NCBI GenBank assembly: GCA_003056245.1
Contig: MVDH01000001.1
Span: forward strand, 1,364,716 to 1,428,715
Direction: 5' to 3'
Source of the DNA: Cellvibrio sp. 79
GTDB taxonomy: Bacteria; Pseudomonadota; Gammaproteobacteria; Pseudomonadales; Cellvibrionaceae
DNA length: 64,000 nucleotides
In this document: positions 53,563 through 60,465 of the stretch, piece by piece
Layout: each line of letters opens with the position of its first letter
How positions within the stretch are numbered: the first letter of the stretch is position 1
Position numbers and translations under genes: made by a program
Notes under the pieces: generated by a model
The model's database searches: none
Seen by the model: only the letters and a program-made list of their open reading frames with translations
Told to the model about the DNA's origin: nothing

Positions 53563-55392
53563 TTAAAACTCTCCCAGGAATCCCCCTGACTGCCGCGCCC
53601 ACAAATGCGCATAAACGCCATTTTTTGCTAGCAATTCATTATGGGTACCCTGTTCAATTATTTGACCGTTATCCAGCACAATCAAACGATCCAGTGCTGC
53701 GATAGTAGACAATCGGTGTGCAATCGCGATAACTGTTTTGCCTTGCATCAACGAATTCAAATTAGTTTGAATTGCTGCTTCCACTTCTGAATCCAGTGCA
53801 GAGGTTGCTTCATCCATAATTAAAATCGGCGCATTTTTAATTAGCACCCGTGCAATCGCAATACGTTGGCGTTGGCCGCCCGATAGTTTTACGCCACGTT
53901 CACCGACATGGGCGTCATAACCGGTGCGGCCTTCGTTATCCACTAAACCCAGAATAAATTCATGTGCTTCTGCTTGTTGTGCGGCGTGAATCATTTCTTC
54001 TTCAGTGGCATTGGGTTTACCGTAAAGCAAGTTATCGCGAATGGAACGATGCAATAACGAGGTGTCTTGCGTAACCATGCCGATATGAGCGCGCAAGCTT
54101 TCTTGCTTGATGTCGACAATGTTTTGGCTATCAATCAGAATCGAGCCCGAATCTACATCGTAGAAGCGCATCAGCAAATTGACGAGTGTGGATTTACCTG
54201 CACCGGAACGTCCTACCAAACCAATTTTTTCGCCGGCGTTGATGTGCAAATTAAAATCCTGCAATAAACCGGATTCTTTGCCGTAGTTAAAATCTACCGC
54301 TTTAAAATCAATCGCGCTGTTGGTGATATTTATTTCCGGTGCATCGGTTTTATCTTGCACTTCGCGAGGAATGGATAAGGTGTTCAATCCGTCGCGCGCG
54401 GTACCCATATTTTCGAACAGCGCCGATACTTCCCACATAATCCACTGCGCCATACCGTTTAAACGCAACACCAAACCGACAGCGGCAGCGATTGCACCGG
54501 TAGTAATGGCTGCGCTCGACCATAGCCAAAGCGACATTGCGGCTATAGCGAAAATCAGCAGGACATTGATGATCCACACTGCGGTACCCAGCAATGTGGC
54601 CAAGCGCATTTGCGGGTGAACGGTCGACAGGAAATATTCCATCCCTTTTTTGGCGTAATCCGCCTCGCGGTTGGAATGCGAAAAAAGTTTTACTGTGGAA
54701 ATATTGGTGTAGGTATCAACTAAACGTCCGGTCATATCCGAACGCGCATGGGCTTGTTGGGTAGAAATTTTGGACAAGCGTGGCAGGAAGTAATAGAGCA
54801 ATCCGCCATAAGCAAGGAACCAGGCGATTAGAGGTAATGCAAGTCGCCAATCGAGTGAAACAGCAAGCACCAAAATACTGCTGAAATACACCATCACATA
54901 TAGCATCACATCCAGCAGTTTCATTATGGTTTCGCGTACCGCAAGCGCGGTTTGCATTACTTTGGTAGCGATACGGCCTGCAAATTCATTCTGGTAAAAC
55001 TGATAGCTTTGGCCCAGCAAATAGCGATGCGCCTGCCAGCGAATCCGCATAGGGAAATTGCCGAGTAATGTTTGATGCATTAATAACGAATGGAGTAAAA
55101 CCGACACCGGCAAACCAACCAGCAGGATAAATGCCATCCAGATTAATTCACGGCGGGATGCGGTCCAGAAAGTGGCTGGTGAATGCTGGTTTAATGAATC
55201 GACCAGATTGCCCAGGAAGCCAAAGAGCGACACCTCCATTACCGCAATTAATCCGGTAAATATCGCCATGCCAATCAGATAGGCTTCGGCGCCTCTGCTG
55301 TAATGTCTGCAAAAAGCGTAGAGGGTTTTTGGTGGGGCTGAGGGTTCCTGCGGCGGAAATGGCTTTATCAGGCTTTCAAAAAAACGAAACAT
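53563..55392 (-). CDS. ABC exporter, fused permease and ATPase (MsbA/MdlB-like)
   Basis: A 609-residue half-transporter. Six transmembrane helices lie in about residues 35-330, then an ATPase domain: Walker A GRSGAGKST, signature LSGGQRQRIAIARVL, Walker B ILIMDEATSALD and H-loop AHRLS. It should work as a homodimer exporting lipids, peptides or drugs; the substrate is unknown. I start at ATG 55392 (MFRFFESL); an in-frame GTG at 55404 would add four residues. Monocistronic. Confidence 0.9.
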   Translation of the reverse strand: MFRFFESLIKPFPPQEPSAPPKTLYAFCRHYSRGAEAYLIGMAIFTGLIAVMEVSLFGFLGNLVDSLNQHSPATFWTASRRELIWMAFILLVGLPVSVLLHSLLMHQTLLGNFPMRIRWQAHRYLLGQSYQFYQNEFAGRIATKVMQTALAVRETIMKLLDVMLYVMVYFSSILVLAVSLDWRLALPLIAWFLAYGGLLYYFLPRLSKISTQQAHARSDMTGRLVDTYTNISTVKLFSHSNREADYAKKGMEYFLSTVHPQMRLATLLGTAVWIINVLLIFAIAAMSLWLWSSAAITTGAIAAAVGLVLRLNGMAQWIMWEVSALFENMGTARDGLNTLSIPREVQDKTDAPEINITNSAIDFKAVDFNYGKESGLLQDFNLHINAGEKIGLVGRSGAGKSTLVNLLMRFYDVDSGSILIDSQNIVDIKQESLRAHIGMVTQDTSLLHRSIRDNLLYGKPNATEEEMIHAAQQAEAHEFILGLVDNEGRTGYDAHVGERGVKLSGGQRQRIAIARVLIKNAPILIMDEATSALDSEVEAAIQTNLNSLMQGKTVIAIAHRLSTIAALDRLIVLDNGQIIEQGTHNELLAKNGVYAHLWARQSGGFLGEF

Positions 55393-55559
55393 AATGAATA
55401 TCACTGGCTAAAAACTGAACCGGTATTGTAGCAGTTCACACTGCCGACTTCGTGTAACCAAGTGTTAATTTGTGATGCTACACTGTCGCCCATTATTGAA
55501 GGCGCTAGTGTCAGCGATTGACAGTAGCTAGTGATCAGTATTTGCGCGAGTCGGTGTTT

Positions 55560-55949: not shown

Positions 55950-55967
55950 GTGCGGGGCATTTTTGTT

Positions 55968-56489
55968 ATGAAAAGAACGTTTGTTTTTTCATGGTGTTTT
56001 TTTCTGCTGGTTGCTAGTGGGATATTGAATGCACAGTTGTTACCCAATGGTTCATTGAATGCCCAATCAGTACAGCGTTGGATGCAAACCAATCGCGATA
56101 TCGCCCCGATTATGCAAGCAATAGATACAATGAATGACACGGATGCGAAGATTAAAGCATTTGATACCATGCCAGCTGCAGAGCAGGATAAAAAAATCGA
56201 TGCGCTGTTAAAATCTAAAAATTTGCAGGAGCTGGCAAAAAACATTACGCAAAAACATGGCTGGAAATCGGTCGGCGAATATATGCGGTTAAGCACTAGA
56301 TTGGGCAATGCAATAGCTGCGTATTTTTTATTTGGCGATATGGAAAAAGTGACCGAAGAGCAAGCAGCACAATTGAAAGGAAAAGCAGATCCTGCGGTAT
56401 TAGCAGTGCCGCGTAGCGATATTGAATTTGTAAAACGCAACGAAAAAACTTTGCAGCATTATATCCAGGCTTATGGGGCAGGGCGATGA
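55968..56489 (+). CDS. Exported helical protein, unknown
   Basis: A 173-residue protein with a signal peptide (about 1-22, ending GILNAQ) and a mature part rich in Lys/Asp/Glu/Gln helices. No known family was recognised. It contains two methionine-rich helix pairs (AIDTMNDTDAKIKAFDTM). It shares a likely transcript with the preceding membrane protein and is convergent with the unusual 56588-58895 operon. Confidence 0.72.
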   Translation: MKRTFVFSWCFFLLVASGILNAQLLPNGSLNAQSVQRWMQTNRDIAPIMQAIDTMNDTDAKIKAFDTMPAAEQDKKIDALLKSKNLQELAKNITQKHGWKSVGEYMRLSTRLGNAIAAYFLFGDMEKVTEEQAAQLKGKADPAVLAVPRSDIEFVKRNEKTLQHYIQAYGAGR

Positions 56490-56587: not shown

Positions 56588-57616
56588 CTAGCGTGAACCA
56601 CCGCTTAAGTTCAGGTAAACCAGGGTTTGATTGAGTAGCTGGTAAGCCACTTCACCAAATGTGATTGGGCCAGTTAAATCGCGAGTCTTTTTGCCTTCCA
56701 GTTCTGAATACAAGTAATTCAAAATACAGTTGCAGGAAAACGAAATATTTTCACTGGCTGAAGCAGATAATTCTTTATTGAAGCTTTCGATGTAATTATC
56801 TACCGGTTGGGCAAAGCGGTAACTGATATCGCTAAAGACCGGCGCATACAGATCCACCTTTTGATTGGCTTCATCGATTTGCTGGATACTTACGTTAATC
56901 ATTACGCCGGAATAGTTAGCCACTAACGGCAGGCGAGTATCAATTTTTGCGTATTTAATGTAATCGGCCAGGTTTGCCGGTTCACCATTAATTGTGCAGT
57001 CACTGACGGAAAAGCCGGTGCTTTTGAATTTAATCTCGGGCCCCTGGCCCTGGTTAAATAAATTCACAATGTTGATATTGGCCAATTGATTGCCGGGTAA
57101 TGGAATATGCATCGCGACCGCTTGCTGATCAAACAACATCCCGCGCGCAGGACCAAAGCCAACCTTCGCATTGCGATTGCCGATATCATCCAGGTGGACG
57201 CCCGAGATCCAGCCAATAATGGGCGAAAAATACATGTTTGGATAATCCGGCGCATTTTGCGCATACGATAAATGCACTTCTGACATCGCCGGAAGAATTA
57301 CTACAGTGAAGCCATGTTCAGGCGCTTCTTGTGCAATGCGTGAAATGGAGTTTGCATCATAGAGCGTGATGCGTGGAGCATTGCTGGGTTGAACACCTTC
57401 AATAGTATTAACAAAAATATGTTCGCGATCCGATTTCCCACCTTCACTGGTCATAAAATAAGGGATTGTTCCTGCAATCCAGTTACCCGAAGGTAATCCG
57501 TCCAATACGGTTTCATCTGCAGCAATAACGAGATACTCGCCGCGATTAATTTTTTCCACGACCTGGTCGCGCGTTACCAATGCGCTACGAATGCGGATAT
57601 CAGTATCTTGTGCCAT
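56588..57616 (-). CDS. FIST-like protein (probably DUF6976), operon partner of the repeat protein
   Basis: A 342-residue soluble protein without signal peptide or membrane segment. The N-terminal part contains GLPSGNWIAGTIPYFM (about 40-55). The C-terminal part contains FSCNCILNYLYSE (around 293-305) and ITFGEVAYQLLNQTLVYL (about 318-335). These match the look of the FIST C-terminal sensor domain (SCN..., TFGE...). I believe the family is catalogued as DUF6976, but this is from memory. FIST domains are thought to bind small ligands such as amino acids. AGGAG precedes the ATG. It follows the 57639-58895 gene by 22 bp, so the two form an operon. Confidence 0.7.
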   Translation of the reverse strand: MAQDTDIRIRSALVTRDQVVEKINRGEYLVIAADETVLDGLPSGNWIAGTIPYFMTSEGGKSDREHIFVNTIEGVQPSNAPRITLYDANSISRIAQEAPEHGFTVVILPAMSEVHLSYAQNAPDYPNMYFSPIIGWISGVHLDDIGNRNAKVGFGPARGMLFDQQAVAMHIPLPGNQLANINIVNLFNQGQGPEIKFKSTGFSVSDCTINGEPANLADYIKYAKIDTRLPLVANYSGVMINVSIQQIDEANQKVDLYAPVFSDISYRFAQPVDNYIESFNKELSASASENISFSCNCILNYLYSELEGKKTRDLTGPITFGEVAYQLLNQTLVYLNLSGGSR

Positions 57617-57638
57617 ACAAGCTCTCCTGGCAGTTTAC

Positions 57639-58895
57639 TTAGTGTGAATAACCGTTGCTCATTACCATGCGAAGTTCTTGCTGCATAAATCGCTGGTTAT
57701 GTTTTATAAAATCTCTTACGCGTCTTACCGCATTTAATTCCACTACCGGGTCCGGATTCATAAGAATTTGCGAACGTAAATTAGACAGTAATAATTTATA
57801 GGCAATATGTGAACTAGGGATGAAAGTATCGTCTTTTAAAATTCGCTTCCAAATATCGTTACGCTCATCAGGAAGGCTAATTTGATGCTCTTCCGGATCA
57901 TTCATAATTTTATTAATCAGGATTAATTCCTGTTTCAAATTACGCGCATTTTTACGGAAAAATTCGCGTAACTGATTAAGGATATCAACGCGAACATTGT
58001 TGTCCTGCGTATTCTGGAAAGCGTGGCGCAATCTCACCAGAAACAAATTCAATGGCATATTGTTGGAGCCGAGATCAATCTTGGCACTGATCAATTTCAA
58101 CCAGATACTGTTTTTAAGTGATGGAAGCACCAATTTGGTGACGGTGCTGCGACGCTCTTCAACGGATTGCTTCTTGGTTGATAACGCGCAAATTTGGCTG
58201 AGTTCAGCATCAAGGGAGTTTGCATGCGAGATGAAAAACTTGCGTAATTCATTGACTGAATCACCGAGTTTCGTTTCGACTTTAGGGTCGATCATCGTGA
58301 GCTTGAGTTTCGATAATAAAAGTTTTAGCGAAAACAGCTGGGTTCTCAAATGAAACTTGTCGTAAATCATGCTTTCCCAGATGGGGTCTGATTCCATCGG
58401 TAAGCATGTTGCCAATCGATAGGATTCGGGGGTTTTTTCTACATCACTAATAATTTCTTCCACTGCTTGTTGCTCAATGCGCAATGTATTGGCAATAGCG
58501 TCCGGTGCAATACTGCGAAAATGCAACAGCGACACTTGCTGGCGTAGCTCGTGTGTGTAGTTACGGTTTGCATCACCGAGGAAACCTGGTTGCAGTAGGG
58601 AATCTTTGCCAATTCCGGAACCGCTGATGGTCTGGTCATAAAAATTGGAAACTATGTGGCAGCTATAGTTACCAAAGCCTGTATGTAACCAGCGTTTGGA
58701 AAAACCCGCGTCGGCAATTTTATTATTATTGGCTTCCTGGCTTTTGGAGAAAAATGAAAAACGCGATTTCTCAACCAGATAAGCAAGCTCAACGTGAATA
58801 ATTCTGCTTTTTTCGTCGATCGAAACATCCTGTACTGACCAAGGCGCATTTATTCCCAGTATGGCCTCAAAGTAATGCTTGGGTTGTTTAACCAC
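57639..58895 (-). CDS. Unusual protein: ISL3-transposase-like N-terminus fused to three ~71-residue helical repeats
   Basis: A 418-residue protein read from a GTG start (58895) with AAAGGAG 6 nt upstream. Residues about 7-50 (FEAILGINAPWSVQDVSID...RIIHVEL) and 66-85 (SKRWLHTGFGNYSCHIVSNF) resemble the start of ISL3-family transposases, and 113-155 resemble their following helix-turn-helix. The zinc-ligand cysteines of that family are absent, and no DDE nuclease domain follows. Instead, residues about 165-236, 257-327 and 341-411 are three diverged copies of one unit: LP....IW..., an L.L.L..LR helix, a V..LR.FF helix, and ...EL..I/V. No signal peptide is present. The function is unknown. Its operon partner is FIST-like. 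Confidence 0.8.
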   Translation of the reverse strand: MVKQPKHYFEAILGINAPWSVQDVSIDEKSRIIHVELAYLVEKSRFSFFSKSQEANNNKIADAGFSKRWLHTGFGNYSCHIVSNFYDQTISGSGIGKDSLLQPGFLGDANRNYTHELRQQVSLLHFRSIAPDAIANTLRIEQQAVEEIISDVEKTPESYRLATCLPMESDPIWESMIYDKFHLRTQLFSLKLLLSKLKLTMIDPKVETKLGDSVNELRKFFISHANSLDAELSQICALSTKKQSVEERRSTVTKLVLPSLKNSIWLKLISAKIDLGSNNMPLNLFLVRLRHAFQNTQDNNVRVDILNQLREFFRKNARNLKQELILINKIMNDPEEHQISLPDERNDIWKRILKDDTFIPSSHIAYKLLLSNLRSQILMNPDPVVELNAVRRVRDFIKHNQRFMQQELRMVMSNGYSH

Positions 58896-59472
58896 TTGCT
58901 ACTCCTTTGGATGTCAGTTGTCAAAAATTACTTTTTACTTCGACAAAACCTCAGATCAAAGTAGTTTTTTGGCTTCTACCGTCATGTGGTATGGGATAGA
59001 TGTTAGAAAACATGGATTTCTGTGTTTTAACATTCACTGATGGATATCAATCAATATAAACAGCAACACATATATGAAGATTCTTTTGAAGGCGCGCGAT
59101 TATGGCGATCCATTCGCATTATTAATAGATGTATTTTTATAGATGCTAAAAATTTGTCGCCTAAGTTTCTATTAATGTAAAAGTGGATTATTTTTGTGTG
59201 CTGTCGCTTAACTTACCAAAAGAGTATTTTTGGAATTTATTTTCGTCTAAATCATTAATCTTATTTTCTGTGTGACTAGTTGAAAAACAAAGAGGACCCT
59301 AAGTTCTAGCAATAAAAAAAACAGTTGTAATTTAAAATTTCTTTTATGAGAGCTGGTTCGCGAAAATTAATTTCCGTTATTTTCATGCCTAAATGATTAT
59401 GAAATCTTTGAACTGCATTCTTTCCCACCGACCAAAAAATCGGTTAATGAGATAATTTTCAAGGATTAAATT
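58896..59472. other. AT-rich divergent intergenic region
   Basis: No gene is supported in these 577 bp. It must carry promoters for the minus-strand repeat-protein operon and the plus-strand aldehyde dehydrogenase. The only structure noticed is a weak ACCGA/TCGGT inverted repeat (59427-59431 and 59440-59444), 28 bp before the dehydrogenase start, and ATAGATG occurring three times. The base composition is clearly more AT-rich than the flanking genes. Confidence 0.5.
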
Positions 59473-60465
59473 ATGCAGTTCATTAAAGCTCTATTGAGTG
59501 GTGATTTTTTCAAACCCAGTGTGTTTAAAAACAATCAACAAAATGACAAAGTTCGTGTGGGAATTATCGGCACTGGAAAAATTGGTGCTGATTTGCTGGC
59601 CAAAGTACAACGATCTCCTTTTATGGAATGTGTACTTTTCGCAGGAAGGAATCTCGATTCGGCAGGGATGATTTACGCTGCTAAATTGGGCGTCAAAATT
59701 TCAGATAAAGGCATTAATGCTTTTCTCGATCAAAGCAATCGTTGCGACATTGTTTTTGATGCTACTTCTGCTGCATACCACAAAGAACACGCCAAGCTTT
59801 TTGAAGAGTTAGGCATATTGGCGATTGATATGACTCCCTCCCAGATAGGTGAATGTTGTGTACCTGCATTAGGTATGCAGGAGGCTGTGCAGCATCGTAA
59901 TATCAGTATGATTTCATGTGGTGGGCAGTCATCTATTCCTGTTGCGCATATATTGGCTAAATATATTCCCGACGTTAAAAAAATTTCTGTCTCCTCAGTT
60001 GTTTCTGCTAATTCTATCGGACCGGGAACACTGGCTAATATTGATGAGTATTATCGCAATACCAAAGCGGGCTTAAATAAATATACCGGTGTAAACGACT
60101 TTGATGTTGAGCTTCATGTGGATGATGTCAATCTGGAGACCCGGATGTTTACCAGTGTAACCGCCTGGTGTGACGCGGCGGATTTGGATGCGTTGCATGG
60201 TCCATTGAATGAAATGCTGATGCGAATTCAACGATACGTGCCGGGCTATCGCCTGGAATCAAGTCCATTGGTTATTGACGGTGGTATCCGTGTGGATTTG
60301 AGCGTGGAAGGTTTGGGGGACTACCTGCCTAAATATGCAGGTAACCTCGATATTATTAATTGCGCTGCAATTGCTGTTGCAGAGCACTATGCAAAATGTT
60401 TGTTGGATGAGCGTCATGCGCAACAAGTGCCAACAATCAAAACCGGGTTACAAATGGAATATTGA
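59473..60465 (+). CDS. Acylating acetaldehyde dehydrogenase-like protein (MhpF/DmpF family), orphan
   Basis: A 330-residue enzyme of the MhpF/DmpF family, which oxidises an aldehyde to the acyl-CoA with NAD+. NAD-binding IIGTGKIGADLL (about 31-42), catalytic C149 in MISCGGQSSIP, and SIGPGTLANIDEYY are present, as is the C-terminal YLPKYAGNLDI. It carries about 25 extra N-terminal residues (MQFIKALLSGDFFKPSVFKN...). The family normally works in a channelling complex with 4-hydroxy-2-oxovalerate aldolase, but no aldolase gene is nearby. AAGGA precedes the ATG. The true substrate is open. Confidence 0.85.
   Translation: MQFIKALLSGDFFKPSVFKNNQQNDKVRVGIIGTGKIGADLLAKVQRSPFMECVLFAGRNLDSAGMIYAAKLGVKISDKGINAFLDQSNRCDIVFDATSAAYHKEHAKLFEELGILAIDMTPSQIGECCVPALGMQEAVQHRNISMISCGGQSSIPVAHILAKYIPDVKKISVSSVVSANSIGPGTLANIDEYYRNTKAGLNKYTGVNDFDVELHVDDVNLETRMFTSVTAWCDAADLDALHGPLNEMLMRIQRYVPGYRLESSPLVIDGGIRVDLSVEGLGDYLPKYAGNLDIINCAAIAVAEHYAKCLLDERHAQQVPTIKTGLQMEY

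Follow-up and report, generated by a model that had tools for sequence, protein, structure and literature searches.

Two adjacent genes, referred to here as A and B, lie on the reverse strand of a 64,000-nucleotide stretch of the genome of Cellvibrio sp. 79 (the window; Table 1). The original prediction, which was made from the letters of this stretch, saw in them a two-gene unit, and the layout bears this out. The genes are 22 bp apart, a GGAG ribosome-binding site precedes each start (6 nt ahead of A and 7 nt ahead of B), and the flanking genes are convergent on the downstream side (55950-56489, +) and divergent on the upstream side (59473-60465, +, 577 bp from gene A). Both genes are under strong purifying selection. 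When the window is compared with the related locus L032, the ratio of nonsynonymous to synonymous substitution rates (dN/dS) is about 0.01 for each (A 0.008/0.795, B 0.010/0.888); against the more distant loci L026 and L031, dS is saturated or nearly so.

Table 1. Coordinates of genes A and B and of associated features in the window
Feature	Position	Strand	Description
Gene B	56588..57616	-	Open reading frame (ORF), 342 amino acids (aa), ATG start; Pfam DUF6976 (PF22396), predicted FIST/chorismatase fold
A-B gap	57617..57638	-	22 bp, including GGAG ahead of the B start
Gene A	57639..58895	-	ORF, 418 aa, GTG start; ISL3-transposase-like head and three helical repeats
Repeat 3 of A	57648..57878	-	Residues 340-416; repeat profile, independent E-value (i-E) 9.5e-12
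Repeat 2 of A	57897..58130	-	Residues 256-333; repeat profile, i-E 4.1e-11
Repeat 1 of A	58182..58406	-	Residues 164-238; repeat profile, i-E 3.1e-15
Head of A	58425..58895	-	Residues 1-157; by comparison homologous to ISL3 N-terminal zinc ribbon and helix-turn-helix (HTH); zinc ligands lost
Ultra-conserved 28-bp element	58936..58963	-	40 bp ahead of the A start; inverted arms TACTTTGA/TCGAAGTA; candidate operator or leader

Pairing of A and B across genomes

Relatives of the pair were collected from genome contigs with two patterns, which gave 542 stretches in which one gene may count twice. The 80 closest loci, holding 81 B genes, were kept. An ORF that matches a profile of nine A proteins from the order sample (E up to 5.2e-4) ends just upstream of B for 79 of the 81 B genes; 4 of these 79 partner matches are at least 95% identical to a member of the profile, and 11 are at least 70% identical. 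Judged by gene order, the pairing of A and B is near-invariable, and the neighborhood survey for which the original prediction had called comes out on the side of co-occurrence. The two B genes without a partner match are those of L092, which starts at base 33 of its contig, and of L104. L104 (L104:6443-9998) is the one internal locus in which B has no repeat partner; the gene ahead of B there encodes a Ser/Thr protein kinase and ends at a distance of 3 bp.

In the order sample, DUF6976, the Pfam family of B, occurs in 10 of 293 genomes, one of which (G093) holds degenerate pieces that were not counted as intact. All ten intact B genes, from nine genomes, have a partner, which is of the A type in eight genomes and a 75-aa single repeat in G007. 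A further genome, G274, gave no match to DUF6976; it contains, at the end of a contig, a fragment resembling A. The family was found in 5 of 369 genomes of the class sample, and it exceeds the cut-off in 3 of 398 genomes of the phylum sample. The three plasmid-borne B genes all lie beside a repeat partner and are annotated as hypothetical proteins.

The gap between A and B ranges from -35 to +170 bp in the 79 relatives, eight of which have overlaps of 4 bp (-4), and no fusion of A and B in a single ORF was found among the 81 B frames. If the two genes had no joint function, and were held together by chance or by selfish co-transfer, a pairing of 79 in 81 in records from several phyla, in which the flanks diverge, would be difficult to explain, as would the eight 4-bp overlaps and the strong purifying selection. 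We consider such an explanation extremely improbable. As a separate observation, the whole A-B pair is tandemly duplicated in genome G084 (L008, L011, L018 and L022) and in L045 (L045:6237-10973), the A proteins being identical between G084 and L045.

Predicted fold of B and domains of A

B matches DUF6976 at 474 bits (cut-off 27) over positions 2-320 of the 321 in the model, and belongs to this family. Its closest relatives are from Cellvibrio and related metagenome-assembled genomes (MAGs), with 97% to C. mixtus J3-8 and 98% to a gammaproteobacterial MAG. The AlphaFold model of B, with a predicted local distance difference test (pLDDT) score of 94, has the FIST/chorismatase/cyanuric-acid-hydrolase fold, and as modeled B is a FIST-fold protein. 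A profile of B also aligns with FIST proteins in the C-terminal part (E 2.8e-4; none of 60 shuffles was as good), and the invariant Cys, Glu and Asn of FIST proteins align with C297, E322 and N329 of B. Of the FIST C-terminal motif (Cys/Arg, GE, N-x-T), the Cys, GE and N are retained in B, and the Arg is replaced by Asn. The Pfam models FIST and FIST_C (PF08495 and PF10442) gave no match to B at E up to 1, and a FIST_C search of the window's genome gave no matches. Thus, the FIST-like character that had been predicted for B stands as far as the modeled fold and the profile comparison are concerned, but Pfam assigns the protein to DUF6976 and not to FIST. A search of solved structures by sequence returned a single match for B (E 0.5) and four for A (E 0.13 or worse), which is chance level.

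The FIST protein NosP is described as a detached sensor that acts on kinases (PMC12570481; PMC8846402), and the FIST domain of FBXO22 as a protein-recognition domain (PMC11185555). We suspect that B, as a soluble protein of the FIST fold, may be the receiver of a signal, which could be a small ligand or a partner protein. Alternatively, B could be an enzyme of the chorismatase/cyanuric-acid-hydrolase fold, with A as a scaffold for its assembly or regulation. Chorismatases and cyanuric acid hydrolases do have the same overall fold as B, but with lower scores, and an enzymatic function is not indicated; we consider this alternative unlikely.

No Pfam family was matched by A. The protein consists of a separate head (residues 1-157) followed by three copies of a helical repeat of about 75 aa (i-E 3e-15 to 4e-11), so that its description as a repeat protein with a head proves correct. 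The repeat profile was made from 13 single-repeat partners of other lineages, and these 13 of the 79 partners match it by construction. At i-E < 0.01, one repeat was counted in 49 of the 79 partners, two in 2, three in 25 and four in 3; at this threshold one repeat in the first L045 copy was missed. Outside the 79-partner set, L129 has a partner with five repeats (L129:8647-10509), in which the zinc ribbon of the head looks intact. The predicted model of A has a pLDDT of 73.8 and a predicted template-modeling score (pTM) of 0.47, and HTH folds are among the weak matches of the fold search made with it. We suspect that B may dock on the helical repeats of A, in which case the number of repeats (one to five in relatives) would set the number of B molecules per A.

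Sequence comparison shows homology between the head of A and the DNA-binding unit at the N-terminus of ISL3-family transposases, which comprises a zinc ribbon and an HTH. The head profile matches the A protein of the window at i-E 4.8e-40, although this profile includes the window's own head and the heads of several loci counted with it. The heads of the window's lineage align with other A heads, some of them zinc-bearing (hhalign E 3.4e-18), and with four ISL3 transposases (hhalign E 5.8e-13; best of 60 column shuffles 0.025). For the beta/gamma heads (A6), the comparison with four ISL3 transposases gave an E of 1.2e-19 (best of 60 shuffles 0.04). Because the four ISL3 proteins were chosen from matches to the L083 and L089 heads, this comparison leans to a match. 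Evidence for the ISL3 link that is free of such selection comes from Pfam and from a search of plasmids. The heads of L083 and L094, which are close relatives of each other, have CxxC and CxC motifs and pass the cut-off of the Pfam ISL3 zinc ribbon (27.7 and 28.0 bits; cut-off 25.5). The L083 head, searched against plasmids with tblastn, gave 1491 records at E up to 1; among the 15 listed are ISL3 transposases, including one of Salinivibrio with 31% over 133 aa (E 5e-11). In the L089 and L129 heads a zinc ribbon and then an ISL3 HTH were matched, both under the cut-off. No catalytic transposase domain was found in A by Pfam, and the remainder of the protein consists of repeats.

The only cysteines in the A protein of the window are at positions 79, 164 and 236, and it therefore has no zinc ribbon; the zinc-binding cysteines are retained in L083, L094, L129 and L089. 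The DNA-binding-like head of the original prediction is supported by the homology to ISL3 transposase N-termini, but in the window this head has lost its zinc ligands.

A head was called in 63 of the 79 partners. Among the 16 without, those of L041 and L048 are at contig starts and cannot be judged, and 14 partners have a single repeat with no head detected. The head-less partners are in records labeled Bacillota, Spirochaetota, Holophagales, Deltaproteobacteria, Solimonas, Thiotrichaceae and a Heimdallarchaeota MAG, among others, and the taxon labels of MAGs may be wrong. Given that head-less single-repeat partners are found in records of other phyla, the repeat together with DUF6976 is taken as the core of the system. 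Since these partners have no head, repeat and B together must do something independently of it. The head seems to have been added to A later, and in many proteobacteria the A protein would have it, as a DNA-binding-type domain acquired from an ISL3 transposase, in addition to its repeats.

A head derived from a transposase could also be expected if A-B were a mobile-element, defence or toxin-antitoxin module. The patchy distribution (10 of 293 order genomes and 5 of 369 class-sample genomes) would be in keeping with this, as would the three plasmid copies, one of which adjoins an opposite-strand ccd toxin-antitoxin pair. However, four proteins gave no PADLOC match, the pair was found in no phages, and none of 63 pattern matches in viral contigs was confirmed. 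In addition, the flanking genes are common to several Cellvibrio loci, A has no catalytic transposase domain, and dN/dS is about 0.01. We regard a module of this kind as very unlikely; it is disfavored by the PADLOC, phage and viral-contig negatives, and the plasmid copies amount to three records.

Upstream element and neighboring genes

The 28-bp element ahead of A is nearly invariant in Cellvibrio, and is identical at 27-28 of its 28 positions in seven of the eight other loci compared; L031, with 4 of 28, is without the element. The rest of the intergenic region upstream of A is only 45-50% identical in five of the seven element-bearing loci. With up to 3 mismatches allowed, the genome has no second copy of the element. 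A search of the A leader against Rfam found no family, the surroundings of the element fold little better than shuffles (z -1.03), and promoter and terminator scans found fewer sites than shuffles on average. A natural guess from its conservation is that the element is an operator bound by the head of A, and it is also possible that it is a leader element. In Cellvibrio the head would most likely anchor the putative complex on DNA, and the 28-bp element would be the likeliest, autoregulatory, site. In this scenario, the state of B would alter the expression of A and B, and perhaps also that of the divergent neighbor. This neighbor (window 59473-60465) is an acetaldehyde-dehydrogenase-like gene that lies near A in 12 loci, from Cellvibrio and from gammaproteobacteria related to it, and it is a possible regulatory target.

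When the neighboring genes were clustered, the commonest true gene family after A itself was that of ABC transporters, found in 20 of the 80 loci, with no fixed position or strand. The second and third clusters were set aside, as they hold A itself and frames that overlap A or B, and the remaining clusters are in fewer loci or among close relatives. ABC transporter genes lie within 7 kb of the pair in the window (53563-55404) and in Cellvibrio and Methyloversatilis, among others, with varying position and strand.

In 5 of the 80 loci (L059, L083, L089, L094 and L095), the genes that come after B on its strand encode an N-extended receiver protein and then CheW, a methyl-accepting chemotaxis protein (MCP) and a CheA-type protein. 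A CheY-like receiver is present in three of these five loci and a periplasmic-binding-type protein in two. These genes were called by Pfam in L059, L083, L089 and part of L095, and the others by similarity. L129 (L129:4155-10509) has the same gene order as far as the MCP gene, and the fetched stretch shows no CheA gene beyond this point. In L132 (genome G407), CheR and CheB come after B, whose partner there has a single repeat. The first ~150 residues of the N-extended receiver protein have no Pfam match. We take the chemosensory operons that follow the pair in several gammaproteobacteria to be of the Pil-Chp type (receiver, CheW, MCP and mostly CheA). A chemosensory operon as the output of the pair was not foreseen by the original prediction.

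The chief rival to a DNA-bound complex comes from these operons. The pair may provide the input to chemosensory or other phosphorelay systems in general, with a head that is now a protein-protein domain. B would then modulate a kinase or receptor, for which NosP and NosK are a precedent (PMC12570481), and in Cellvibrio the pair would act in trans on a system encoded elsewhere. Consistent with such a role, the pair comes first in the receiver/CheW/MCP operons of L059, L083, L089, L094, L095 and L129 (with CheA except in L129), and precedes CheR-CheB in L132. The loss of zinc ligands from the window head also fits a protein-protein domain. However, the operon is present in only 5 of the 80 loci. 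Signaling genes account for 28 of the 350 genes at positions +1 to +5, as compared with 4-7% further out (the other bins hold 10/367, 9/227 and 15/214), and 21 of the 28 are from the five loci, from which the query set was partly drawn. These counts by position suggest that the chemosensory link is lineage-specific. A search for the N-extended receiver found no relative in the window's genome and, in the order to which the window belongs, weak matches in 3 of 286 genomes (E 2e-4 to 4e-4), none of which bears B. No che or pil genes lie beside the pair in the window. We consider a general adaptor role of this kind possible, but less likely than not.

A putative signaling complex and its relation to known systems

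We suspect that A and B form one signaling complex, in which a FIST-fold sensor is docked on the repeats of A and which is DNA-bound in the Cellvibrio lineage. This is the interpretation that we favor, although tentatively, as its chances seem to us somewhat less than even. In some gammaproteobacteria, the A-B pair may be wired to a chemosensory array.

Several observations weigh against a DNA-bound sensor complex. With respect to the sensor, Foldseek by itself is not significant for B (best E 5e-3), and no obvious ligand pocket is reported for the FIST domain of FBXO22 (PMC11185555). The model of A is a moderate one (pTM 0.47), and a fold search with it found nothing at E up to 0.001. For the origin of the head, the L089 head gave only four records when searched against plasmids, with ISL3 proteins at E 0.1 or worse, and L135, an ISL3 transposase of another subgroup that was picked independently of the heads, gave no match to them. 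The head in the window has no zinc ligands and could now bind protein, and the existence of head-less partners (Bacillota, Spirochaetota, Holophagae and others) implies that DNA binding is not the core function of the pair. As for the array, only a minority of loci have the chemosensory link, whose N-extended receiver has no relative in the window's genome. Of the sensor-regulator module that was originally proposed, the conserved unit remains, but a simple DNA-binding regulator is weakened by the 14 of 79 partners without a head and by the lost zinc ligands.

From a broader perspective, the pair may represent a new class of split sensor, in which a domesticated ISL3 head is combined with tandem docking repeats that load one to five FIST-fold sensors. 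Such an assembly would either act as a regulator on DNA or feed into a chemosensory array, and the head-less single-repeat pair would be its ancient core. We think it rather unlikely that all of this applies. Nevertheless, the FIST fold and the fixed partner turn the orphan family DUF6976 into a testable two-protein system. A would be an example of a transposase DNA-binding unit recruited into a cellular protein, and the variable number of repeats offers a natural series for the study of stoichiometry.

No paper names DUF6976 in the literature searched, which agrees with the earlier claim that the pair had not been described. Literature on FIST in combination with chemosensory or ISL3 terms contains, in the text available, no description of such a module. 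The parts are of known kinds; their combination, and the repeat partner and transposase-derived head within it, appear to be undescribed.

In contrast to the pairs followed by Pil-Chp-type chemosensory operons, that of the window is an orphan, and none of their genes adjoins it. Like ISL3 transposases of the ISCfr12 type, A has in its first ~135-150 residues a region that corresponds to a zinc ribbon and then an HTH, in the same order. Unlike these transposases, it lacks a catalytic domain, has repeats and a fixed partner in B, and in the window's lineage has lost the zinc ligands. B shares its predicted fold with the FIST proteins (NosP-NosK, FBXO22), but has no Pfam FIST/FIST_C match and has Asn at the position of the motif Arg. 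In contrast to NosP, which is paired with the histidine kinase NosK, B has a helical-repeat protein as its partner.
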